Origin: a virus | Length of the DNA: 58,832 nucleotides | Reading direction: 5' to 3' (one strand) | Virus record (IMG/VR): IMGVR_UViG_3300037606_000073 | Span: 1 to 58,832 of that record | In this document: piece by piece, positions 14,601 to 40,656 of the stretch | How the letters are laid out: each line of letters begins with the position of its first letter | Numbering within the stretch: the first letter of the stretch is position 1 | Made by a program: the position numbers and the translations under genes | Notes under the pieces: model-generated | Databases searched by the model: none | Told to the model about the DNA's origin: nothing | The model's input: the letters and a program-made list of their open reading frames with translations, nothing else

Positions 14601-14606
14601 CCACCG

Positions 14607-14640
14607 ACCCGTCTAGCGAAAGCTAGGCGGGTTTTCTTTT
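14607..14640 (+). terminator. Rho-independent terminator
   Basis: An 11-bp stem (ACCCGTCTAGC with GCTAGGCGGGT, one T-G pair) closes a GAAA loop and is followed by TTTCTTTT. It ends the short two-gene early unit and separates it from the control region. Confidence 0.85.
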
Positions 14641-15707: not shown

Positions 15708-15980
15708 ATGAACTATACAATCGAGATCGACGAGTACAGCCTTGAGGCAACCGCCGACGTGCTGCGTATTATCAACCCCGGTAAGTCCAGTGCTGCCCAT
15801 ATCAGGGCCAGGGTCAACGCTAATATGCGGGATGGTTCCACGTCCCTTAGTACTGCTGGCTGGGAAGCTGCTGGTTTCTTCCCTGACCATAAGCCCGGTG
15901 TAATGGTAGTCCGCTTTGCTGTCGCTGCCTACACAGTACAGTGCTGGCTTGATAACAACCCCACCAAGGAGATCAACTAA
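15708..15980 (+). CDS. Hypothetical early protein, 90 aa
   Basis: A 90-residue protein (MNYTIEIDEYSLEAT) with a mixed alpha/beta pattern and no signal peptide or membrane segment. AAGGATG lies before its start. It overlaps the following gene by TAATG, so the two are probably made together. No family recognised. Confidence 0.65.
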   Translation: MNYTIEIDEYSLEATADVLRIINPGKSSAAHIRARVNANMRDGSTSLSTAGWEAAGFFPDHKPGVMVVRFAVAAYTVQCWLDNNPTKEIN

Positions 15981-16777
15981 TGTACGGAAGTAACGTCCAA
16001 TTACCCAGCAACCGTATGCTGTCCTACAACACAGCACTGCTCAAGTACAACTCCATCAAGCCTATCCGTGGTCGGTCAGACCAGAACACAAGGCCACTGG
16101 CCCATCGTGGCAACGACAACCTGACCATCCGGATGGAGCCAACGACCAGTGACATACTGGTCCGGCTCTACTCCACGGATATTGTCCGCTATGTCCACCA
16201 GCAGGGTGGTGACCCCGACCTAAGTCCCATCATCTTGGACCCTTATGCTTCTGTCCTGACCAACAGTGTCATGCGGTCCATCCTTGGGCCACATGTTAAT
16301 ACCTACTGGTCGAATAGTGGCCTCATCACCGAAGTGGGTGGTCGGTACTATAACACCCCGTCCTTCGTCACGGTCCAGCCAGCAGAGACCGGTTGGACGC
16401 TTGTCGATGGTTCCAAGCCCATCGAGGTGCCGGCTTTCAACCGTAAAGAGGGCAAGCAGGCCCTCAAGGACAGCAACTACTACATGTTCAAGCTATGGTT
16501 GGATACACGTATTCGTCTCAACTTGAGTCCACTTGGCCCCCGTTGGTACACTCGCAGTCCGTTTTGGACACCTAGTGAGGCTATGGCCTACCTCCGCCAA
16601 GGTGAGACTGGTTGGGCTGAGATCGCTGGTCGTACGAGAAACCGTGAACCACTGGAGGCTGAGCTGCGGTTACTGCGTGAGGCTGTCTACAAGCACGGTA
16701 TGTGCTACGACACTGAGTCGTATGAGTACTTTGGCAGCCACACCAAGCTACAAGCCGCCATGCGTAGGGTCAGATAG
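15980..16777 (+). CDS. Hypothetical early protein, 265 aa
   Basis: A 265-residue soluble protein with many arginines and tyrosines (MYGSNVQLPSNRMLSYNTAL). A central region holds mixed strands (ADIVRYVHQQGGDP-like and VGGRYYNTPSFVTV), the C-terminal part is helical (EPLEAELRLLREAVYKHGM). I recognise no family. It precedes the MoxR-VWA cassette and may belong with it, but two stable hairpins separate them. Confidence 0.6.
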   Translation: MYGSNVQLPSNRMLSYNTALLKYNSIKPIRGRSDQNTRPLAHRGNDNLTIRMEPTTSDILVRLYSTDIVRYVHQQGGDPDLSPIILDPYASVLTNSVMRSILGPHVNTYWSNSGLITEVGGRYYNTPSFVTVQPAETGWTLVDGSKPIEVPAFNRKEGKQALKDSNYYMFKLWLDTRIRLNLSPLGPRWYTRSPFWTPSEAMAYLRQGETGWAEIAGRTRNREPLEAELRLLREAVYKHGMCYDTESYEYFGSHTKLQAAMRRVR

Positions 16778-16866: not shown

Positions 16867-17856
16867 ATGCGTGCTACATTACTGAAAGAAACACTCAAGT
16901 CGCTGGTCACGATTGGCCGGTCCACAGCTATCGAGGGGCCCCCGGGCGGGGGTAAGACCACCATCGTCCACGAGGTGGCCGAGGCTATGGGGCTGCCTGT
17001 CATGGAGCGGCACATGCCCACCATGCTGGTCGAGGACTTTGGGATACCGTATCCCACTGACGCTGGGTTCGAGTACAAGCTGCCCGATTGGTTCCCCCTC
17101 AAGGGCAAGGCTGGCACTGAGCGTGGTGGTATCCTGCTGTTTGACGACCGGAACCAAGCCAACGCTGATCTACAAAAGGTACTGGCCAACATCCAGCAAG
17201 CTCGGACCCTACATGGCAAGCCCTTGGCCGATGGGTGGACGGTGGTGTCAACTGGTAACAGGCAGTCCGACAGGGCTGGTGCCAACAGGGTTCTGTCACA
17301 CCTTCGTAACCGTGAGACCGTGCTGGAGTTCGAGACACACCTCGACGATAGCACCCAGTGGATGATCGACCACGACGTACACCCCATGGTCATTGCCTTC
17401 ACGCGGTTCCGACCCCACTTGCTGCATGACTTCGACCCACAGCGTGACGTCAACCCAACACCACGGTCATGGGTCGAGGGTGTCAGTGCAGTACTGGGCA
17501 ACGTGCCATCCGAGGCAGAGTACGAGTGCTTCAAGGGTGCCATTGGTGAGGGTGCCGCAGCTGAGTTTGTTGGGTTTGTGCGTATCTACCGTAAGCTGCC
17601 CAACCCCGATGCTATTCTCATCAACCCCGATACGGCAGAGGTACCGACTGACCCGGCCACACTCTACGCCTTGTCCGGTGCCTTGGCTGACCGTGCCACC
17701 GAGGCCAACTTGGAACGTGTTGTGACGTACACCAGCCGTATGCCAGCCGAGTTCTCGGTCCTCAGCATCTCCCATGCTGTCCGTAAGACACCCGATCTGG
17801 CCAACACGGCAGCCTTTACCAAGTGGGCAGTGAGCCACCAAGATGTCCTCTTTTAA
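16867..17856 (+). CDS. MoxR-type AAA+ ATPase
   Basis: A 329-residue AAA+ protein. Walker A GPPGGGKT at residues 24-31, Walker B-like GGILLFDDRNQA near 88-99, then a sensor-like VVSTGNRQ and the arginine-rich LRNRE segment. The FDDRNQA form matches MoxR/CbbQ ATPases, which partner VWA proteins to remodel targets. It heads a tight cassette: 84-residue protein, DUF3150-like protein, 52-residue protein and VWA protein. Target in the phage cycle is unknown. Confidence 0.8.
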   Translation: MRATLLKETLKSLVTIGRSTAIEGPPGGGKTTIVHEVAEAMGLPVMERHMPTMLVEDFGIPYPTDAGFEYKLPDWFPLKGKAGTERGGILLFDDRNQANADLQKVLANIQQARTLHGKPLADGWTVVSTGNRQSDRAGANRVLSHLRNRETVLEFETHLDDSTQWMIDHDVHPMVIAFTRFRPHLLHDFDPQRDVNPTPRSWVEGVSAVLGNVPSEAEYECFKGAIGEGAAAEFVGFVRIYRKLPNPDAILINPDTAEVPTDPATLYALSGALADRATEANLERVVTYTSRMPAEFSVLSISHAVRKTPDLANTAAFTKWAVSHQDVLF

Positions 17857-18097
17857 GCCCAAGAGGCCGACGTTTGTCCACTGGTTGCGTACCAGTGGAC
17901 AGATCGCTGACGCGGAACTCGACGGCCTCGCCGAGGAGTGGGTCAAGTACCGCAAAGAAGCCCCAAAGAATATAAACTTCACCACTGGCCCCACCACGTG
18001 GGACCAGTTCGTTGCCAGCAAATACCCGCGTAAAGTGCTGACCTACCAAGCGTATCTCCGACTGATCGGGGCTGCGCCAACCTTCAACAAGGACTGA
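17843..18097 (+). CDS. Small soluble protein in the MoxR cassette, 84 aa
   Basis: An 84-residue protein (MSSFKPKRPTFVHWLRTSGQ) that overlaps the MoxR stop by 14 bases. Aromatic helices (FVHWLRTS, TWDQFVASKYP, YQAYLRLIG) resemble small YozE/SAM-like helical folds, only by eye. The overlap argues for co-translation with the ATPase, perhaps as an adaptor. Function unknown. Confidence 0.6.
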   Translation: MSSFKPKRPTFVHWLRTSGQIADAELDGLAEEWVKYRKEAPKNINFTTGPTTWDQFVASKYPRKVLTYQAYLRLIGAAPTFNKD

Positions 18098-18101
18098 CAA
18101 C

Positions 18102-18965
18102 ATGAAACTCAACGACCGAGCAATCCTCGTACAACTCAGCATCTCCACATGGTCAGCCAACAAGCTGGACAAGGAGATCAGCACCGAGACAACCCGTGCC
18201 AAGGGCGCGATGTCCGGTTCGATCCGTAGTCACAAGAGCCTGCTGCCCATGTGTGACCTGCTGAACGACATCAAGTCCAAGGCCAGCCTTATCCGCAGCA
18301 AGTTCTACGAGAACACCCTACCTTGGGGTGTGAAGGGTATCCAAATCCTGCCGACTGCCAACTACCTCACCTTTATGACCGAGTTCCGCAAGGAACGCAG
18401 CGAGTATGAGTACCTTGTGCAGCAGTTTGCACCTGCCTACCCTCAGATGGTGCTCGACGCCAAGTACCTACTTGGGTCCAGCTACAAGGCCGAGGACTAC
18501 CCCGACGTCAGCGAGATCGCCGACAAGTTCAAGATGGATATGCAGATCATGCCTGTCCCCAACGACGACTTCCGGGTCAACATCGCCGACGAGGAACTGG
18601 GCCGCATACAGCAAGAGGTCCAAGCCCGTGTCAAACAGGCCGGGCAGCAGGCTATGCGAGACATATGGCAGCGGCTTTATGACAAGGTTACTCACATGGC
18701 AGACCGACTGTCCAAGCTGGACGACCCCAAGGCCCGCTTCCATGAGAGCACTCTGGAGCATGTGACTGACCTGTGTGAGTTACTGCCACGGCTCAACGTA
18801 ATGGACGACCCCAACCTTGAGGCCATGCGCCAAGAGGTCGAGGGCAAGCTGGCTGGACTGAGCAAGGACAGCGTGGTGTTAAGCACCACGTTCCGGCAGA
18901 CCAAGATCAACGAGGCCAACGATATCGCTGCCAAGATGGCCGCCTTCATGGGGGGACTGAAGTGA
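18102..18965 (+). CDS. DUF3150-like protein of the MoxR-VWA cassette
   Basis: A 287-residue, strongly helical protein. The opening LVQLSISTWSANKLDKEIS and the later Y-rich LPWGVKGIQILPTANYLTFM agree with the DUF3150 family as I know it, which occurs in phages next to AAA+ and VWA genes. Long helices in the C-terminal half (residues about 160-280) suggest a rod or coiled bundle. It probably links the ATPase and the VWA protein or is their substrate. Confidence 0.65.
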   Translation: MKLNDRAILVQLSISTWSANKLDKEISTETTRAKGAMSGSIRSHKSLLPMCDLLNDIKSKASLIRSKFYENTLPWGVKGIQILPTANYLTFMTEFRKERSEYEYLVQQFAPAYPQMVLDAKYLLGSSYKAEDYPDVSEIADKFKMDMQIMPVPNDDFRVNIADEELGRIQQEVQARVKQAGQQAMRDIWQRLYDKVTHMADRLSKLDDPKARFHESTLEHVTDLCELLPRLNVMDDPNLEAMRQEVEGKLAGLSKDSVVLSTTFRQTKINEANDIAAKMAAFMGGLK

Positions 18966-19120
18966 CCAAATTCGACACAGAGTACGTCAAGGCCAGACTG
19001 AGGCAGGCAGTGGCCGCTGCCGGGCAGCCACACTACGGCTGCAATGTCACCGAGATCGACAACTTACACGAGGCCATAGACGTAGTGCGTGGACTCATTG
19101 AAGAACTGGAGAAAAACTGA
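18962..19120 (+). CDS. Small helical protein, 52 aa
   Basis: A short gene with a GTG start that overlaps the DUF3150-like stop (GTGA) and a TGA that overlaps the VWA start (TGATG). The product has 52 residues, MTKFDTEYVKARLRQAVAAA at the N-terminus and an acidic helix at the C-terminus. The tight coupling on both sides supports it as a true member of the cassette. Function unknown. Confidence 0.6.
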   Translation: MTKFDTEYVKARLRQAVAAAGQPHYGCNVTEIDNLHEAIDVVRGLIEELEKN

Positions 19121-20238
19121 TGGACCTGATGAAACGACTGAGCAAGGCCAAGACCAGCCTGATCTTGGAACACCCCTTCATTGGAAGCGTGGCACTCAAC
19201 ATGCCCATGACGCTGAGCACCGATGTGCCCACCGCTGCGACCAACGGTAAACGTGTGCTGTACAACCCCGACTTCATCGAGCCACTGACTGACGATGAGC
19301 TCAAGTTCCTTGTGGCCCATGAGTGTCTTCACCCCATGCTGGAGCACAACTTCCGCCGTGGTTCTCGTGACCCCAAGAAGTGGAACAAGGCCGCCGACTA
19401 TGTCATCAACCAGCTACTTGTCGATGAGGGCATTGGCAGATTCATCGAGGGAGGCTGCCTAGACAAGAACATCTACACCAACGGCGGCGGTACAAGCGAC
19501 GGTATATACAACCTGTTACCAGACAGTGACGGTGATGGCGATGATGGCGACGACGATGGCCCCGGTGGACCCGGTAACGATCTGGAGGATGGGGGCGGTA
19601 GCCCAGCGGAGCAGGCTCAAGAGGCTGCCGAGTGGAAGATCAAGGTGGCCCAAGCGGCGCAGGCTGCCAAGATGATAGATAAACTGAGCGCCAACATGGC
19701 ACGGCTTGTTGACGAGGTACTCAGGCCCAAGGTTGACTGGCGCGACAGACTGCGGCAGTTCGTGCAGAAGGCCAAGACAGACCAGCGTACCTTTTCCAGA
19801 CCCAACCGTAGGTTCCTGTCCCAAGGGCTGTACATGCCGAGCATCACAGGCGAGGCGCTGGGTGAGATGGTGTTCGCCGTGGATATGTCAGGGTCTATTG
19901 GCCAAGACGAGGCCAACCAGTACGGCGCCGAGTGCCGCGTGGTGTACGAGGATGGCCGACCGCTCAAGCTGCATCTTGTGTTCTTCAGTCACGAGGTATG
20001 TGCTCACGATGCTATCGGTCGTGACGACGAGTTCGTGTTCAATCCCCGCGGTGGTGGTGGTACAGCGTTCAGCCCTGTGTTCAAGTACATCGAGGAGCAA
20101 GGCATCGAGCCTGCTGGCATCGTGTTCCTCACTGACCTGTACTGCCATGACTTTGGCGACGCACCTGCCTGCCCTGTGCTTTGGGTGACGACAGGCGCGA
20201 CAAGCGCGCCGTTCGGCGAAGTAGTGGGGATGGTATGA
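19120..20238 (+). CDS. Metallopeptidase-like VWA domain protein (DUF2201-type)
   Basis: A 372-residue protein. The N-terminal part holds HECLH (67-71) followed by a further His at 76, a zincin-like HExxH. Residues about 125-155 are an acidic glycine/aspartate linker. A VWA domain follows with MIDAS residues DMSGS (about 255), the GGGGTAF threonine loop and the LTDLYC aspartate. This is the classic partner of MoxR ATPases. In phages the role is undefined. Confidence 0.8.
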   Translation: MDLMKRLSKAKTSLILEHPFIGSVALNMPMTLSTDVPTAATNGKRVLYNPDFIEPLTDDELKFLVAHECLHPMLEHNFRRGSRDPKKWNKAADYVINQLLVDEGIGRFIEGGCLDKNIYTNGGGTSDGIYNLLPDSDGDGDDGDDDGPGGPGNDLEDGGGSPAEQAQEAAEWKIKVAQAAQAAKMIDKLSANMARLVDEVLRPKVDWRDRLRQFVQKAKTDQRTFSRPNRRFLSQGLYMPSITGEALGEMVFAVDMSGSIGQDEANQYGAECRVVYEDGRPLKLHLVFFSHEVCAHDAIGRDDEFVFNPRGGGGTAFSPVFKYIEEQGIEPAGIVFLTDLYCHDFGDAPACPVLWVTTGATSAPFGEVVGMV

Positions 20239-20471
20239 CAACACTTACCCAGATCGGCAAGGCAAAACCAGACGAGCAACTGATTGAAATCTGCGAAAAA
20301 CTGCTGGAACGTGCGAAATCTGGCGAGCTTCGGTCCCTAGTCTACGGGGGCTCGCTCGCCAATGGTTCGTTCACCACGGGGTTTGATACCGCCGATACCT
20401 TGGAGGCCGTGGGCCTTATGACAATCGCAATCCATAACATTGCAGCCCTCAACCGCGATATTTCAGACTAA
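20235..20471 (+). CDS. Hypothetical protein, 78 aa
   Basis: 78 residues from the ATG at 20235, which overlaps the VWA stop (ATGA). Helical first half (EQLIEICEKLLERAKSGE), then a small glycine-rich turn and a helix (TLEAVGLMTIAIHNIAAL). Soluble and unrecognised. Overlap with the VWA gene may tie it to that cassette. Confidence 0.6.
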   Translation: MTTLTQIGKAKPDEQLIEICEKLLERAKSGELRSLVYGGSLANGSFTTGFDTADTLEAVGLMTIAIHNIAALNRDISD

Positions 20472-20484
20472 GAAGGAGATGATG

Positions 20485-20817
20485 ATGACAACGAAATCTG
20501 ACATCTATGACAGCTTCGACCGCATGATCGTACTGTGCAACGAAAAGGTTAGGCTAATGATTGAGCTCAAGAAAGGACTGCGAATGGCAGACCTCTTGGG
20601 CATGAAACCAAAAGACATCAAGGGTAAGATGCGCGCCCGTGTGATCGCAGCAAGTAACTCTGGATATGAACCTAGACCTTGGCGTGGTGCACAGTACACG
20701 TTGCAGATAGACGATGGACCGGTACACAAATTCCCGTTGATCGACGTGCACAAAGACTTGTGGCCAGCCGACATGCTTGCAGCCCACGCACGGTGGGAGA
20801 AAAGAGGTAACAAATGA
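20485..20817 (+). CDS. Hypothetical protein, 110 aa
   Basis: Started at the third of three consecutive ATG codons (20485), because AAGGAG ends six bases before it. The product begins MTTKSDIYDSFDRM, has a basic central region (KPKDIKGKMRARVIAAS) and a C-terminal part with PLIDVHKDLWPADM. It overlaps the following small gene by ATGA. No family recognised. Confidence 0.6.
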   Translation: MTTKSDIYDSFDRMIVLCNEKVRLMIELKKGLRMADLLGMKPKDIKGKMRARVIAASNSGYEPRPWRGAQYTLQIDDGPVHKFPLIDVHKDLWPADMLAAHARWEKRGNK

Positions 20818-33063: not shown

Positions 33064-33073
33064 TCACTCTGCA
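33047..33073. terminator. Bidirectional terminator-like palindrome at the convergent junction
   Basis: A perfect 12-bp stem TGCAGAGTGACT / AGTCACTCTGCA with a TAT loop covers the stop codons of the rightward primase-helicase gene (TAG, 33061-33063) and the leftward giant gene (TGA, 33064-33066). No T tract follows in either direction. It is well placed to stop both convergent operons. Confidence 0.65.
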
Positions 33074-36000
33074 ATGTAGGCATCCACGATCTTCTGCGCC
33101 GCACTCCTTGAGGATAGCGGCGTGGTCTTCAGGAACCGCTCACTGGCACCTAGACGCTGCGATCTCAAGGCGCTGCGGACGCGGGACCTAAGGTTGACAA
33201 CCTCCAGCCCTGTCCCCTCGGCGGACTCATTCCACTCTCGGGCCTCTGCATATAGCGCCTGCACCTTGGCGTTATCGCCAGCCACTGTGGCGGCTACGAT
33301 GCGGTCGCGGTAGTACACAGACATAGACTTCTGGTACTCGGTGATGAGCTTGGCCTCACGGACAGCTCCGTACATTGCAGATGTTGCGCTCGGCTGGAGA
33401 CCAAGTATCCGCCCCAGACCTATGGCTGCATTGTAGTCTTCAGATACTACATACCCGCGTTTGTCCACGATGGCTCCGTGCTTCTCGAAGGCGAACGCGT
33501 CCGATACGGCACGCACGAACGCGACCGGCGACTCCCGCAGTGTTGACTCAAGGGAGAAGGCTTTCCCCCCGGGCAGGATGTTGGCCACATTACCTATGGT
33601 CCCTATCATCTGTTGTATCCACGACGCCATCGGTCCGCCAATCGAGATAAGCTCGCGTGACACATCTGCTCCAGCGAGGCCAATACCCGTACCCGGTAGG
33701 ATATTACCATTGGAGAAACGCACGCCAGCGTCGTACGGAATGAGCCGGTTGAGCCCACCGCTCACAATTATCTCCCCCAAGCCGGGGAGCAGCTCGTCCC
33801 CTGTACGGCGGATAGAGTCACGGATGCTGGGCATGGGTATACCAAACTTCTGCGCGAGGGTGTTGACGAGGTCCTCGATGTCTTCGGCGTAGGGCACACC
33901 ACGCAAACCGCTGAGCAGTAGCAGTGACCCTAGCAGCAGCACCTGCCCAGAGCGCGGCAGATTGGCGATGAGTGCCGCAGTGTTTACCGTAAACATCTGG
34001 AACATAAACGCAAACTGTAGCGGGCCGCCGCGGAACAGCGCTGGCCTGTCTATGGCGGTGTACCCCCCAAGCGTAGTCAGAACCATCTGAGTGGAGAACG
34101 CGGAGGCAGCCTCAGCGGCTTCTGCTCGTGACTTACCGGCGGCTAGGTGCCGCTGGAACATAAGCTCGAAACTTGCCAGCGCCGTGGTTCTACGCCCAAC
34201 TTGTTCTGTCCAGTTGAACGGGGCCATGTACACCATCAGGAACTTCTGTGCGCCACCGGATGTGATACGCCCACGCGCCGAGCCCATAAGAGAGTTGGTC
34301 TGGGCAGCTTGGAGGATGCCACTGTCAATACCGAGGGCTACGAAGTCTCGCGCCTCAGCCGAGATACCCATCTCTTGCAGCTGCGCGGGGGTGAGGTCTT
34401 GCCAATACTTAGCTGTGTCCTTCTGCCCACCCAGTCCAGCGGCCACCTTCGTCGCCCGAACCATTGCAGCATACGCGGCGTACACCCCAAAGCCCCCGCC
34501 AAACCCCGTCTCGTGGTTCATTGTGGCCAGTGCTGCGGGCGAGTTGACAAATCCACTCACGACGTTGAGCGCACCCGACGCCATCATAAAGCCGAGGTAG
34601 CTCACAGAGGTCAGCATCTGCACCATCGCGATGTGCTTGTTGTTTGCTAGGTCTGTCTCTAGCACACCCTTCTGCTGGTCGCGGAACGCCACCATCGACC
34701 GGGCCTCTGCGTAGAACTTGTTCCCGTTCGCGGGCGCATTTTCAGTGACATACCACCGGTGGTACTGCTCGAACTTCTGGCGGGCCACGCTGATCGCGTC
34801 GTCGTTCGGGTTAGGCGCAGCTTTGAGTCGTTCGTACTCAGCCTTGAGCGTGTCGTACCTTTTCTTGCTGCCCGTCCACAGCTCCGCGGATTCACCCCTG
34901 ATATCGAGCAGGGTCTCAAGTTCCACACTTGTATTGTTCCGGGCGATGGTGGCTGCGCGCGACTCGATGTGTGCTGAGATCGCACTGGTCAAGTCGTTGG
35001 GTGCACCGGGTGTGAAGCCAGTCTTCAGCTGCCGCAGGATCGCACGGTTACCACTAGTGGTCGAGGCTTTAACAATGTCCTCCAGTTTCTGTGGCGTCAG
35101 AGGGATGTTAAAGCGCCGGATGAACCGCAGCGCGGCGTCGTGGCTGATCTCCGGGTCTGTAGTGGGTGCGTCAAGGGTGACCGAGCTTACCCCTGACAGA
35201 TTGCCCTTCTTCATCACGAGCTTGCCACGACCGTTAGCAGCCTCTGGGTCCCACACTTCTACAGTAAACTCTTTATCACCAAACAAGGTTGTGAGTTCCT
35301 TGGCCGCGCGATCAGCATCCGTCCGGCTTTCGTACTGCATGTACGGGGCCTGCTCGCGATAGCTCTCGCCGAGCACGTACCCTTTTCCGTCTGCCCCGGT
35401 GAACACCATGTTTGCTTGGAACTTACCCTCGCGCACGATAGGGACGTAGCCTGTCTGGATCGTGCGGACAGCAGCCTTCTCAGCGTCGTGGCTTGTAGTG
35501 AGCTGCCCAGCGATGAGTCCTACTTCGCGTTGGACCACGCGCCGTTTTTCTAGGCTTTCGACAGCGTTAGGGTCTGCCGCTGGTGGATTGTAGCGGGTGA
35601 GGAACCCGTCGATCATGTCGGTAAGTTCTTTCCGCTCGCTCTCGGGTAACGCTACGATGTCGTTGTTGTCCGCGTTTGGAGCAAACAACCCGTAGATACG
35701 GTCACGGCCAGTGCCCAGCAGGGCGGCGTTAAACTGAACGAGGAACTTTTCAGCCGCGGCTGTGTCGCGGGTCGAGGGGTCGATTTGCCCGCCCTCAAAG
35801 AGGGTCAGGTTTGCGTCTTGTATCTCCACGTACCGGCGGACAACACGGTCCAGCAGCGCGCGGTCACCATCTGTCATGGCGGCGTCCAGCGCCTTCGCCA
35901 CTCGGCGGTAAGAGTTTAATCTCTCTTGGTCGTGTTTGGTGAGGATACTCTCCAGCAGCTCGACTGCGGTTGTGCCCATCGAGTCCAGCTCTTGGTTGAA

Positions 36001-39000
36001 CGCGCCCCACTCAAGGTCCGTGAACTCCTGCTTCACATCGAGGTATGCCACCCCTGTGTATGTGTTGTTCTCGATACGTGCCTTGTAGTTCCGTGTGATG
36101 CGGTTCTTTGCACGGTCCGTCGTGGCTGCTGCAACAGCAGCGTCGCGCTCAGCCGCAAGCTCGGCGCGCTTCGCGTCAGTCATCTCGATATCTGTGTCGT
36201 AAGGCACACGCACACCTGCGGCCCACTGCCCGCGCGACAGTCTGTTCCCTTCGAGGAGTTTCGTGAGCGTACCATCCTGAAGCTGCAGCTCGCCCGTCGC
36301 AGGGTTGCGCAAGAACAGCTTGGGTAGGTTGCGCATGGATGGCATCTTGTAGGCATGCGAGTGGTACATGCGGTTGGCTTTGAGTACGTACCCTGCCTTG
36401 GCGCGTCCGCCCACGCTGATCCCGCTACCGCCCATACCAACCGTGGCGAGCCTTTCTGCCCGTGGGTTAAGGGCGATGTCACGCATTGTCTGCATACGTG
36501 TGACCAGAGAGCGCGCAATGTTGGTTGTGCGCGTCATATTATCGAATACTTTTTGGAACCCTTCGTTGCGCATACCACGGAAGACAGCCGGAGTAACTGT
36601 GTTACGCTTGAGTGAGTCCCACTTATCGGCGAGGTCCTTGGGCGAGAAACCCAGTACCTCTACGGCGCGCGTGACCTTGTCCAGTGCATCTTGGATAGAG
36701 GACGGCATGACCCGCCCCGGGTCGTCCACCGTGTGGCCTATTGAGCGGATAGTAACGTGCTCGGCTGCAGTGCTGAAGCGGCCCACCCCAGTGGGGTCCG
36801 TGCCTGCGTCGAGCTGGTGCATAGTATTAGCGATTAGGTCAGTGTTGAACACAGAGCCTTTCTCCCCAGTGCGCAGGTACCTGCCGCTCTGGTTCATAAG
36901 GTAGCGCGCGGCATCGTCGTCGAACTTGAAGCCGATATTGTTCAGCGCGTCTTTGGCTTTGGCCCACCACCGACGCAGGATACTCATCTCCACGCGCGCG
37001 GCGAAGTCCGAGAGGTATTCTTCAACAGCTTCTGCGCGGGGGATACCACGTGCCGCGACCATATCGTCGACGGCGATCTTCATGTAGGGCACGCTGTCGG
37101 TGTAGAAGGACTCCATGAGCGTGTTGAACTCGGATGTACCGAGCACGGACCGCATACCAAAGTGGCCCAGCACCTCGTGGGCGACGACGAACTCCAGCTG
37201 CTGGCGCGTAGCGACACGGTCGCTGAAGATGATGACTTGGTTGTCGAAGAAGTACCCCACCGCCGGTGCGGTATCGAAGTCGCCTTGGCCACGGGCCGCA
37301 GCCGCGCGCTTGTAGAGCGCAGGGTTCCGCTGCTTCAGGTCAGCCTGACTTGCGAACACAGACAGCTCGGGCTTTACCTTAAACTTGTTGAGTATATTTC
37401 GGGCGATCATACGCTGCTTGCCGATGGCCAGCGGAACTGCACGACTGCCATTACCAAGAACAACGTCGGCCAGCGACGCGAGCGAGAACGCACCGCCGGG
37501 GTTTGTGTTGGGCGTGGTGTGGGCGATCTGCCCCATCTTTTTGTTTGGCGAATTGTTTACCGTAGCGTACCCGAGGACGTCTGCCTTAGGGTCGCTGTTA
37601 CGCACACGCGTGGCCAGTGCCCTAAACCGCGCTTCGAACGCCGACACGCTGTTGTCGGGCACAGAACCGGAGTTGAACATGGTTACCATGGCCTGTATTT
37701 CTTTGGTCGCGAAGTCCACGCCAGCCGGGTCACCCCCGAGGCTCCTATGGTTGTTCGCACGCGCGACATACGCGGCGAGTTCTTTGTACTGAGTGCTGGA
37801 CAGATTAAGCTCAAGCGCATCCAACGCGGCCGCTGCCACCGATGGGTCAGAGTTCTGGCTAAGCACGGTCAGCTCTGCGCCTGCGTCAAGCTCCGCCTGC
37901 GTGAGCAGGGTACGCTTCTTGCGCGCGTCGTTGAGGATTACATCCTCGGCGAGCTCCACAGCTTCCATCGCTACCGACTGGTCGAACTCTGCGTCTGTCG
38001 GCTCCGCGGGGAGCTTGACTTTCTCTGGCTTCGCGGGCTTCGCCGGGGGCGGCGCTACTTCAGATTCCCGAACAGGCGATTGTTCTTGGGGGGTGTTTTC
38101 TTGGGCGGTTTCTTGGGTAGCCTCTCCGGCAGTGGTTTGCCCTTGGGTGTCTCCGCTTCGAACTTCTCCGCCAGCTGTGGGTTTTTTGCGTAGAGGGTCC
38201 GTCTTTGGCTTTGGCTTTTGAACGGCATCAGGTTTTCCTCTCTTTAGGGTGGGCTTAGGAACCGGTGGCGTAGGTGGGGTTTTCACGCGCAGCGCCCAGC
38301 CCCCCGCGACTTCCATAGGTTCGAGGTCCTTCGGGGTTACAGCTTGGTCAGTCTCTTGGGTGATCTGCTCTGCCACGCGCTTGCGGTTGGCCGGTGCGTT
38401 GGCCTGCGCCTTGTTTTGGAAAGGTGCGCCCTCTGCTGTACCATAGGTGTTGGCAGGTAGCGGCGGGCGCACGCGCTCCATCCGTTGCCCCAGCGCACGC
38501 AGGGCCGCGGCCTGCCCTTGCAGGTCCCGCTGCGCAGCCTCAGTCGCACGGGCCGTAGTCACTTGCTGCTGCATGGCGTTGAGGTCGGCTTCGCGCGTGG
38601 CGGTTACACCGGTGGCTACCAGTGGCTCTGCCTTGCGGACTGTACGTTTCACGAGCCGCGCGAACAGGGCGGCGTCTGCCTCACCCGCACGCTCCGCCAT
38701 GGCCCACTCACGCTGGGCCTTCTTGTTCAGACGTGGCAGCAACGGGAGTGTGTCCGGGTTGGACCGACCAGCGCGTATCTCCGCCCAGCTGCCGTAGGCT
38801 GCGTCGTATTCCCGAGGGGTAATCGCACCAGTGGGGGTGGGCTCCACTACGGTGTCGGTGGGTGCTTCGACCGGCGGTGCTACCACAGGGGCTGGCGTCT
38901 GCGCCGGCTGCGCCGGCTGCTGTCTTTGCTGCAGCTGCATAAGTTGCTGCTGCAACTGGTTTGGTGCAGTCACTAGGGGTGCTGCCGTTGTGACCGCCGG

Positions 39001-40656
39001 AGTCGGCGGGCCTTGTCGCGTAGCAGCAATATCGAAGCCCTCAGCTACAGTACCTTCAAGTCCTAGACTTTGCGAAGTTGCAGGCGCAGGTGCCACGGGC
39101 GCAACAGGCGCAGGTGCCACGGGCGCAGCAGGCGCAGGTGCCACGGGCGCAGCAGGCGCAGCAGGCGGCGCGGGGGGTGTAATAATATCTGGGGCGGCGG
39201 CTGCACTACGGTCAGGCGCAGGGAGTGCAGCAGGCGGAGCTGGTAGTCCAAGCGTAGGAGGAGGAGCAGCAGCGGCTTCAGGCGCCGGTAACCTAAGCGT
39301 GGCCTCAGGCGCCGGTAGCCCAAGCGGGGAAGGAGCAGCGTCCACTGGCGGCGGCTCTTGCCGCCCCTGTAATATATCAGTTGGTTTGCCTGCACGTAGG
39401 TTTACCACACCACCGATACCACCGCCGACGACTGCACCGGCTACACCGGCTTCGATAAGGCGCGACAGGTATTCGTCGGTGTAATCCCCACCGAACTGCT
39501 GGCCGCCAGCCATGACAAGCGCTTCTTGTCCGGCCTCGGTTACACCTTCCAACCCTGCGCCGATTGCGGCGCCAGTGCCTGCGCGGCGGAGCAAACCACC
39601 GGCAGCATTTGAAAAGCCGAACAGCCGGCCCGCAGCGATAGCTTCCGGGATCGTGGACAGCACAGCGTAGGGGACACCAATGGCAGCGGATATCGCGCGA
39701 GCGTCCATGTCCTCTGGCCCCGCGCCTTGCCGGCGGGTCTCACTGTATACGTCCGAGACGCCCATGGCGTAGTTGTTGACCGCCGTCGCAGCGGCTGCAC
39801 CGCCGATGCGGGCCAGCAGTTTCTTCTGCTCGGTCGAGGCTGCGCCCCGCGCGTAGGCTTCTGCGGCTTCTCTGGCTGCGCCTTTGATAGCGCTTTTTGA
39901 CAGCAGCGCACCGAAACTACCGACGGCTGCGCCGATAGGATTACCAGACGCAACACCACCAGCGGCTGCGCCGACGAGCGCGGTACCAATACTCTCGAGG
40001 ATGTTCGGGCCCTGCTGACCAAGCACAGACACAGCGTACTCAATCGCGCCTAGCTCGCCAGAGGCAACCTCTGCGGCCGATACTTGGAAGGGCGACAGGC
40101 GCTGGAGTTCTTCGCTGGCACGGTTGACGACGCCCGCACCTGTCTCCTCTGCCCCAAGGAACTGCAAGCCTGCGCCGCCGAGGGTCTTCAGGTTCTGCAC
40201 CCCGATGTCGAAGCTACGCCCGAAGCGTGTGCCCAACTTGGGGTTTTCGATACTCGCCAAGTACTGTTCAAACATACCGGTGCCTATCCGGGTCCACGTC
40301 CCCCCCGCGGGTGGCTGCGCAGGCTCTGCGTCCAAGCGCGCCCGGGACTGCACGGCAGAATTGTAATCCTCCGCGTCGAAAGCGTACCCGTTTACAGAGA
40401 ACAGGTTGCGAGCTTGGTCAAAGTAGACCGCGGGCCCGGTCGGCGCCTGCGGGGCGCGCATCGTAGTGTAGTCAGGCGCGGGCAGGTTTACTACCTGATC
40501 GAAAGCAACCTGTACATCTGCCATGGTCGCGCCCAGCGCGCCTAGCCCACTGGCTCGGGACGGGTCTCGTAGCGCGACACCGAAGGCATCTTGGGGGCCA
40601 AGCTCCATAGCCGCTGCGCGCGACTCTGGCACCATCAATCCAGCACGTTCTACCAT
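33064..40656 (-). CDS. Giant internal virion protein with metallopeptidase-like motif
   Basis: 2530 residues, last gene of the leftward late operon. Residues about 430-560 are proline/alanine-rich linkers; a zincin-type HEVLGH lies at 1160-1165, preceded by the strand QLEFVVA. The region of about 2000-2210 has hydrophobic segments (LGFMMASGALNVV, LIANLPRSGQVLLLGS) and the phrase FRGGPLQFAFMF, which recalls PLxRFG-type giant phage proteins. It is probably an ejected internal protein that helps DNA entry or acts inside the host. Confidence 0.7.
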   Translation of the reverse strand: MVERAGLMVPESRAAAMELGPQDAFGVALRDPSRASGLGALGATMADVQVAFDQVVNLPAPDYTTMRAPQAPTGPAVYFDQARNLFSVNGYAFDAEDYNSAVQSRARLDAEPAQPPAGGTWTRIGTGMFEQYLASIENPKLGTRFGRSFDIGVQNLKTLGGAGLQFLGAEETGAGVVNRASEELQRLSPFQVSAAEVASGELGAIEYAVSVLGQQGPNILESIGTALVGAAAGGVASGNPIGAAVGSFGALLSKSAIKGAAREAAEAYARGAASTEQKKLLARIGGAAAATAVNNYAMGVSDVYSETRRQGAGPEDMDARAISAAIGVPYAVLSTIPEAIAAGRLFGFSNAAGGLLRRAGTGAAIGAGLEGVTEAGQEALVMAGGQQFGGDYTDEYLSRLIEAGVAGAVVGGGIGGVVNLRAGKPTDILQGRQEPPPVDAAPSPLGLPAPEATLRLPAPEAAAAPPPTLGLPAPPAALPAPDRSAAAAPDIITPPAPPAAPAAPVAPAPAAPVAPAPVAPVAPAPATSQSLGLEGTVAEGFDIAATRQGPPTPAVTTAAPLVTAPNQLQQQLMQLQQRQQPAQPAQTPAPVVAPPVEAPTDTVVEPTPTGAITPREYDAAYGSWAEIRAGRSNPDTLPLLPRLNKKAQREWAMAERAGEADAALFARLVKRTVRKAEPLVATGVTATREADLNAMQQQVTTARATEAAQRDLQGQAAALRALGQRMERVRPPLPANTYGTAEGAPFQNKAQANAPANRKRVAEQITQETDQAVTPKDLEPMEVAGGWALRVKTPPTPPVPKPTLKRGKPDAVQKPKPKTDPLRKKPTAGGEVRSGDTQGQTTAGEATQETAQENTPQEQSPVRESEVAPPPAKPAKPEKVKLPAEPTDAEFDQSVAMEAVELAEDVILNDARKKRTLLTQAELDAGAELTVLSQNSDPSVAAAALDALELNLSSTQYKELAAYVARANNHRSLGGDPAGVDFATKEIQAMVTMFNSGSVPDNSVSAFEARFRALATRVRNSDPKADVLGYATVNNSPNKKMGQIAHTTPNTNPGGAFSLASLADVVLGNGSRAVPLAIGKQRMIARNILNKFKVKPELSVFASQADLKQRNPALYKRAAAARGQGDFDTAPAVGYFFDNQVIIFSDRVATRQQLEFVVAHEVLGHFGMRSVLGTSEFNTLMESFYTDSVPYMKIAVDDMVAARGIPRAEAVEEYLSDFAARVEMSILRRWWAKAKDALNNIGFKFDDDAARYLMNQSGRYLRTGEKGSVFNTDLIANTMHQLDAGTDPTGVGRFSTAAEHVTIRSIGHTVDDPGRVMPSSIQDALDKVTRAVEVLGFSPKDLADKWDSLKRNTVTPAVFRGMRNEGFQKVFDNMTRTTNIARSLVTRMQTMRDIALNPRAERLATVGMGGSGISVGGRAKAGYVLKANRMYHSHAYKMPSMRNLPKLFLRNPATGELQLQDGTLTKLLEGNRLSRGQWAAGVRVPYDTDIEMTDAKRAELAAERDAAVAAATTDRAKNRITRNYKARIENNTYTGVAYLDVKQEFTDLEWGAFNQELDSMGTTAVELLESILTKHDQERLNSYRRVAKALDAAMTDGDRALLDRVVRRYVEIQDANLTLFEGGQIDPSTRDTAAAEKFLVQFNAALLGTGRDRIYGLFAPNADNNDIVALPESERKELTDMIDGFLTRYNPPAADPNAVESLEKRRVVQREVGLIAGQLTTSHDAEKAAVRTIQTGYVPIVREGKFQANMVFTGADGKGYVLGESYREQAPYMQYESRTDADRAAKELTTLFGDKEFTVEVWDPEAANGRGKLVMKKGNLSGVSSVTLDAPTTDPEISHDAALRFIRRFNIPLTPQKLEDIVKASTTSGNRAILRQLKTGFTPGAPNDLTSAISAHIESRAATIARNNTSVELETLLDIRGESAELWTGSKKRYDTLKAEYERLKAAPNPNDDAISVARQKFEQYHRWYVTENAPANGNKFYAEARSMVAFRDQQKGVLETDLANNKHIAMVQMLTSVSYLGFMMASGALNVVSGFVNSPAALATMNHETGFGGGFGVYAAYAAMVRATKVAAGLGGQKDTAKYWQDLTPAQLQEMGISAEARDFVALGIDSGILQAAQTNSLMGSARGRITSGGAQKFLMVYMAPFNWTEQVGRRTTALASFELMFQRHLAAGKSRAEAAEAASAFSTQMVLTTLGGYTAIDRPALFRGGPLQFAFMFQMFTVNTAALIANLPRSGQVLLLGSLLLLSGLRGVPYAEDIEDLVNTLAQKFGIPMPSIRDSIRRTGDELLPGLGEIIVSGGLNRLIPYDAGVRFSNGNILPGTGIGLAGADVSRELISIGGPMASWIQQMIGTIGNVANILPGGKAFSLESTLRESPVAFVRAVSDAFAFEKHGAIVDKRGYVVSEDYNAAIGLGRILGLQPSATSAMYGAVREAKLITEYQKSMSVYYRDRIVAATVAGDNAKVQALYAEAREWNESAEGTGLEVVNLRSRVRSALRSQRLGASERFLKTTPLSSRSAAQKIVDAYIAE

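Follow-up and report, generated by a model that had tools for sequence, protein, structure and literature searches.

A cluster of five genes was analysed at positions 16867-20238, on the + strand, of a 58,832-base virus record with a podophage layout (IMG/VR record IMGVR_UViG_3300037606_000073), the whole of which is called the window here. Three of the five genes, encoding an AAA+ ATPase, a DUF3150-family protein and a protein in which a metallopeptidase domain is joined to a VWA domain, form a conserved same-strand unit, and only these three are core. We propose, at a probability of roughly 0.55, that the trio encodes a ternary AAA+/VWA protein-remodelling machine which would act most likely in the intracellular phase of DNA replication and recombination, on a protein complex of the host or of the element, and which would not be a dedicated virion-assembly chaperone. 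A previous, sequence-only reading of the window had reported five overlapping or tightly spaced genes with Walker A, HECLH and DMSGS motifs at this place, and all were found there, as follows (aa, amino acids; ORF, open reading frame).

16867..17856, +: AAA+ ATPase of AAA_5 type, phrog_1297, core subunit 1; 329 aa (AAA_5 E 5.6e-6; phrog_1297 E 9.4e-68); found in every adequate locus
16936..16959, +: Walker A motif GPPGGGKT, ATPase residues 24-31
17843..18097, +: 84-aa ORF, lineage-specific, not core; without a family in Pfam or PHROGs, profile matches limited to close relatives
18102..18965, +: DUF3150-family protein, predicted to be mostly helical with long helices, core subunit 2; 287 aa (identity to a cyanophage protein, hhalign, AlphaFold2 model, BFVD)
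18552..18575, +: conserved DUF3150 loop PVPNDDFR, residues 151-158, candidate contact site (conservation; low model confidence at 156-161; low entropy)
18962..19120, +: 52-aa ORF, lineage-specific, not core; 10 profile matches, in close relatives only
19120..20238, +: DUF2201_N metallopeptidase domain, acidic linker and DUF2201 VWA domain, core subunit 3; 372 aa (DUF2201_N 5.3e-49; DUF2201 1.4e-18; phrog_1314 4e-97)
19318..19347, +: HExxHx4H motif HECLHPMLEH, VWA-protein residues 67-76, kept in phage and plasmid groups
19882..19896, +: metal-ion-dependent adhesion site (MIDAS) DMSGS, VWA-protein residues 255-259, with T315 and D339

The core was defined by a survey of IMG/VR, in which 80 loci were retrieved with the window's DUF3150 protein and 21 with its VWA protein, and ATPase and VWA genes were scored with profiles built from our own data. 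Because of this retrieval, the survey measures how tightly DUF3150 is tied to the ATPase/VWA pair and not the frequency of DUF3150-free pairs. A DUF3150 locus was called adequate if it extended at least 3.6 kb upstream and at least 0.6 kb downstream of the match. Both the ATPase and the VWA gene were present in 48 of 48 adequate loci, and the 10 incomplete DUF3150 loci all ended a short way from the match. The 183 ATPase and VWA matches all lay on the same strand. Among 37 dereplicated loci the VWA gene was found in 37, DUF3150 in 36 and the ATPase gene in 34, the next commonest neighbour family reaching 20; the neighbourhood conservation of the trio is thus far above background. The gene order is ATPase-DUF3150-VWA in the clade of the window and ATPase-VWA-DUF3150 in a second phage clade, in which DUF3150 is at 31-36% identity. 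These results uphold the earlier suggestion that the AAA+/VWA genes form a self-contained remodelling module, in which DUF3150 is a real partner. The 84- and 52-aa proteins, proposed as further partners, do not share this standing: they are confined to close relatives; elsewhere their slots are empty or hold different small ORFs, such ORFs being shuffled from slot to slot. A mirror-tree test was set aside as proof of co-evolution, since its correlations were high but those of a DNA polymerase control were nearly as high.

The identity of the second core protein required several lines of comparison. Against Pfam DUF3150 (PF11348) the window protein scored 18.5 bits (E 0.0013), below the gathering cut-off of 24.9. 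The annotated DUF3150 protein of cyanophage MinM2, the gene for which sits between a MoxR ATPase gene and a VWA gene, is 28% identical to it (E 6e-28), and hhalign of 35 phage DUF3150 members against six bacterial DUF3150 proteins gave E 7.9e-7, with a probability of 92% over 209 columns. The AlphaFold2 (AF2) model of the window protein had a predicted local distance difference test score (pLDDT) of 80 and a predicted template modelling score of 0.49, and fold comparison with BFVD matched it to an annotated DUF3150 phage protein at E 8.5e-16. The model had no fold match in the PDB, and the sequence gave only short, unconvincing matches to solved structures. By profile and fold, the protein is treated here as a divergent member of the DUF3150 superfamily, and not as a Pfam-threshold member, in keeping with its earlier description as DUF3150-like. 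A marginal fold match to BFVD entry S5YZA3 of Mycobacterium phage Dylan (E 2.7e-3) may mark a distant relative. There are three conserved islands, NTLPWG (71-76), PVPxxDFR (151-158) and LNxxDDPNLE (231-240). In the alignment of 35 phage members P151, P153, D156, F157 and R158 are invariant, and in the AF2 model residues 156-161 have low pLDDT. As PVPxxDFR hardly varies among phages although the model gives this loop low confidence, we infer that it is a candidate contact site; the island is not conserved in a Cupriavidus DUF3150 protein.

The other two core proteins were placed in families directly. The ATPase had been read as MoxR-type; it is an AAA+ ATPase with Walker A at residues 24-31, as described, though of AAA_5 type (E 5.6e-6, above the cut-off) and not MoxR proper, the AAA_3 profile (PF07726) giving 11.9 bits against a cut-off of 27 (E 0.21). 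It has the AAA_5 core of the CbbQ/NorQ/GvpN (CGN) ATPases; the CbbQ_C domain (PF08406), present in the ATPases of integrative and conjugative elements (ICEs) and plasmids, was not found in it by Pfam. Both DUF2201_N and the DUF2201 VWA domain scored well above cut-off in the VWA protein. Its HECLH motif occupies residues 67-71 and is followed by a further conserved histidine, H76, and its MIDAS is complete (DxSxS-T-D: D255-M-S257-G-S259, T315, D339). The window's VWA adaptor looks peptidase-competent. The acidic linker between the two domains is probably flexible. Loss of Walker or MIDAS residues was not seen in phage relatives; Walker A, the sensor-1 Asn, HExxHx4H and DxSxS...T...D are conserved in both groups, phage and plasmid. 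At Walker B the window clade and the Burkholderiales plasmids have DD, with DE elsewhere. Among chromosomal Pseudomonadota homologues of the VWA protein, six of nine (L130-L138; HHxLH listed for L131-L136) have HHxLH in place of HExxH, and a peptidase-competent site, judged by motif, is therefore typical of the mobile-element versions and not of all homologues. The HHxLH replacement suggests that these chromosomal proteins have lost peptidase activity and perhaps kept metal binding. The family phrog_1314 and many phage records (hits H5-H63) name the VWA-metallopeptidase protein 'HNH endonuclease' or 'homing endonuclease', a label that looks propagated; Pfam found no HNH domain in the window protein, only DUF2201_N and DUF2201. 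No solved relative of the ATPase was found by sequence, and the VWA protein gave weak matches only (MJ1213, E 0.11).

The trio is also found outside phages. A Cupriavidus plasmid has it in the window's gene order, and a search with DUF3150 gave 10 Cupriavidus/Ralstonia contigs, all 10 of which carry ATPase-DUF3150-VWA. The bacterial survey, limited to Pseudomonadota, used one plasmid DUF3150 protein as query, a mixed DUF3150 alignment having proved too diverse for the contig scan. The DUF3150 cut-off was passed in eight of 398 genomes; seven of the loci were opened, and a VWA gene was nearby in all seven and a Walker-A AAA gene in five, the ATPase candidates at the remaining two not being AAA_5. 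By Pfam the bacterial partners are AAA_5 with CbbQ_C and CobT/VWA. In PLSDB, at least 1168 plasmid records carry DUF3150, and 978 of these are conjugative. On an Escherichia coli IncA-replicon plasmid an AAA ATPase gene lies upstream of bet-exo and DUF3150-VWA after them, and a Proteus plasmid has the order recT-exo-x-ATPase-DUF3150-VWA. The SXT/R391 ICEs (PMC5561048) were represented by R997, in which the order is ssb-bet-x-exo-AAA-x-DUF3150-x-VWA-radC. In these ICEs a SetCD-activated operon serves RecA-independent recombination and begins with s089 (PMC4344509), and, judging from gene order, s067-s070 of SXT would include the trio. From these sequence comparisons, DUF3150 defines a ternary variant that the window has in common with a cyanophage, with Burkholderiales plasmids and, in a CobS/CobT-like form that has diverged, with IncA/C-type plasmids and SXT/R391 ICEs.

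The ATPase/metallopeptidase-VWA pair itself had already been described in phages, namely in the group 2.2 jumbo phages (PMC7824862). In N4-like phages it belongs to the core, N4 gp24 and gp25 being middle transcripts (PMC4193335). We found the pair without DUF3150 in N4 (gp24/gp25), Vibrio phages, Thermus phage phiFa, Bacillus phage G, PA5oct, cyanophage S-TIM61 and Synechocystis pSYSA; sensitive and whole-record searches revealed no hidden DUF3150 in N4, PA5oct, phage G, phiFa, S-TIM61 or the Vibrio phages. The numbers of phage records matched were 560 for the VWA protein, 647 for the ATPase and 3 for the DUF3150 protein. In Rhizobium phage RHph_TM3_14A the pair lies upstream of the DNA polymerase gene, as in the window, with small ORFs between its members in place of DUF3150. 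Podophage CRP-2, which has a related portal, had no DUF2201 gene in its whole record and no convincing ATPase match in the 35 kb examined. The ATPase and VWA trees, which have long branches, do not resolve the deep order of the groups with and without DUF3150, and one gain of DUF3150 is therefore not distinguished from several.

The window's trio was compared with known systems. Like the jumbo-phage pair and N4 gp24/gp25, of families phrog_1297 and phrog_1314, it has an ATPase gene beside a VWA gene and a VWA protein fused to an N-terminal HExxH metallopeptidase domain; the window clade differs in its strictly linked DUF3150, which is absent from N4, PA5oct, phage G and others, and in having DD instead of DE at Walker B. 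The trio of SXT/R391 ICEs and IncA/C-type plasmids matches it in having a homologous DUF3150 (the hhalign result above), an AAA_5 ATPase and a HExxH plus DxSGS VWA protein, but there the ATPase has CbbQ_C, the VWA protein is CobT/VWA and not DUF2201, the site is with ssb-bet-exo, and the order varies. With the NorQ/NorD and CbbQ/CbbO activases the window shares an AAA_5-type ATPase, here a putative ring, and a MIDAS-bearing VWA partner; it lacks CbbQ_C, has the metallopeptidase domain and DUF3150 in addition, and has no Rubisco or nitric oxide reductase as client. As for cobaltochelatase CobNST, no CobN-like PHROG match was found among the larger window ORFs scanned, not every ORF having been scanned.

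The activases offer a model of mechanism, the ring-plus-VWA scheme being established for NorQD. In that system the VWA finger of NorD enters the pore of the NorQ hexamer, ATP turnover is proposed to twist NorD, and the metal shell of the NorD MIDAS is completed by a ligand from the target (PMC13036017). By analogy with NorQD and CbbQO, the window ATPase would form a hexameric ring on which the VWA protein docks, gripping an acidic residue of the client through its MIDAS metal; ATP turnover would twist or pull this adaptor and so remodel the client, which might then be cleaved by the metallopeptidase domain. DUF3150 would be either an extra arm, that is, a client-binding adaptor, or a dedicated client.

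The intracellular DNA-phase function is favoured over virion assembly because the recurrent setting of these genes is among replication and recombination genes, in elements with and without virions. Several points weigh against our proposal. Co-location is no proof of a shared client. Most phages with the pair are without DUF3150, which is thus not required in every version. The DD pair at Walker B leaves the ATPase activity of the clade unproven. SXT deletions of bet, exo, s067, s068 and s070 lower transfer at most 10-fold (PMC2791158). Further, observations on three phages speak for a link to the virion: detection by electrospray ionization tandem mass spectrometry (ESI-MS/MS) is noted in the annotation of the PA5oct ATPase, N4-like RPP1 has structural genes near gp24/25 (PMC4193335), and virion genes lie near the pair in S-TIM61. 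The corresponding alternative, that the ATPase and VWA-metallopeptidase assemble and process phage structural proteins, was published as a proposal for the group 2.2 jumbo phages (PMC7824862), and it gains from the archaeal virus ATV, in which the virion component p618 binds the VWA protein p892 (PMC4124505). A dedicated role of this kind, also raised in the sequence-only reading, is nevertheless disfavoured and seems to us rather unlikely, because plasmids and ICEs that make no virion keep the trio and CRP-2 does without a DUF2201 gene; in the window, moreover, the genes are in the replication block, apart from the structural genes.

Other readings account for the spread of the trio among mobile elements. 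The machine might disassemble or cleave a host defence or regulatory complex as infection or transfer starts; phages, conjugative plasmids and ICEs all face host defence, and the dispensability in laboratory SXT transfer just cited is what a conditional function would give. We consider such counter-defence improbable, as no match to a known anti-defence family was obtained, the neighbours are recombination and replication genes and not known anti-defence genes, and accessory anti-defence genes are not usually conserved as core so very widely as these genes are in N4-like phages. A bolder conjecture, to which we give only a slim chance, makes the trio a machine of general use to mobile elements: proteins bound or cross-linked to the element's DNA would be stripped off, remodelled or cleared by proteolysis at entry, replication or recombination, by a p97-SPRTN-like logic with DUF3150 as the client-recognition arm, and phages, conjugative plasmids and ICEs would all have kept the machine. 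The trio might instead be a conflict system carried by mobile elements against competitors, with DUF3150 as sensor or effector, since the known MoxR-vWA ternary conflict systems (VMAP, iSTAND, FtsH; PMC7159879) likewise combine an AAA+ protein and a VWA protein with a third protein. That third protein is here DUF3150, for which Pfam, NCBIfam and PADLOC gave no match to VMAP, iSTAND, FtsH, a beta-propeller or an effector domain; PADLOC gave weak P-loop matches for the ATPase only and none for DUF3150 or the VWA protein, and in ICEs the trio is conserved backbone beside ssb-bet-exo, the restriction genes being in hotspots. A conflict system is accordingly very hard to credit.

The surroundings of the trio in the window are as follows. 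Head-tail adaptor/portal, major head protein and terminase genes occupy about 0.2-13.7 kb on the - strand; next comes a block on the + strand, at about 14-33 kb, with genes for exonucleases, DNA polymerase, helicase and primase, and beyond it structural genes form a second block on the - strand. The term early region would suit the module's block, because this + strand replication block sits between - strand structural blocks. Replication genes are near the module in several other phages as well. Judged by portal and DNA polymerase, the window's nearest relatives in culture are Rhizobium phages, RHph_TM3_14A among them, with identities of 37-39%. Within the cluster the ATPase and 84-aa genes overlap by 14 bases, the DUF3150 and 52-aa genes by 4 (GTGA) and the 52-aa and VWA genes by 1 (TGATG), a pattern like that of a translationally coupled operon. 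A promoter and terminator scan gave site counts not above those of shuffled sequence. At 14606-14633, in the low-GC gap that starts the + strand block, there is a terminator-like 12-bp GC-rich stem-loop with a T-rich tail, and such sites are no commoner than in shuffles.

The 265-aa gene upstream of the trio (15980-16777) was considered as a fourth subunit and rejected, recurring in two phage clades but missing from many loci. A remote paralogue family of it lies downstream of the trio (hhalign probability 95%). The 265-aa protein itself is without a known family, and its AF2 model (pLDDT 80) had no PDB match. Just after the VWA gene, 20440-20817 encodes a 125-aa protein, a relative of which sits between DUF3150 and the 52-aa ORF in three relatives of the window (L002, L003 and L009), small ORFs moving around a fixed trio. 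The 2530-aa protein of 33064-40656 matched by its C terminus alone, to one PHROG without assigned function.

In sum, the ATPase/metallopeptidase-VWA pair was already known, and what is provisionally new is DUF3150 as the linked third gene. No paper on DUF3150, whether as a third subunit or otherwise, was found in the open-access literature; most subscription journals and preprints were outside the search, so that 'unreported' is provisional. Common on mobile DNA and part of the N4-like core, the pair is still without an established function. DUF3150 as a strictly linked third gene, together with the related trio on IncA/C-type plasmids and SXT/R391 ICEs, turns attention away from virion assembly and towards an intracellular function held in common, for which phage N4, without DUF3150, and laboratory conjugative elements, with it, offer tractable genetic systems.

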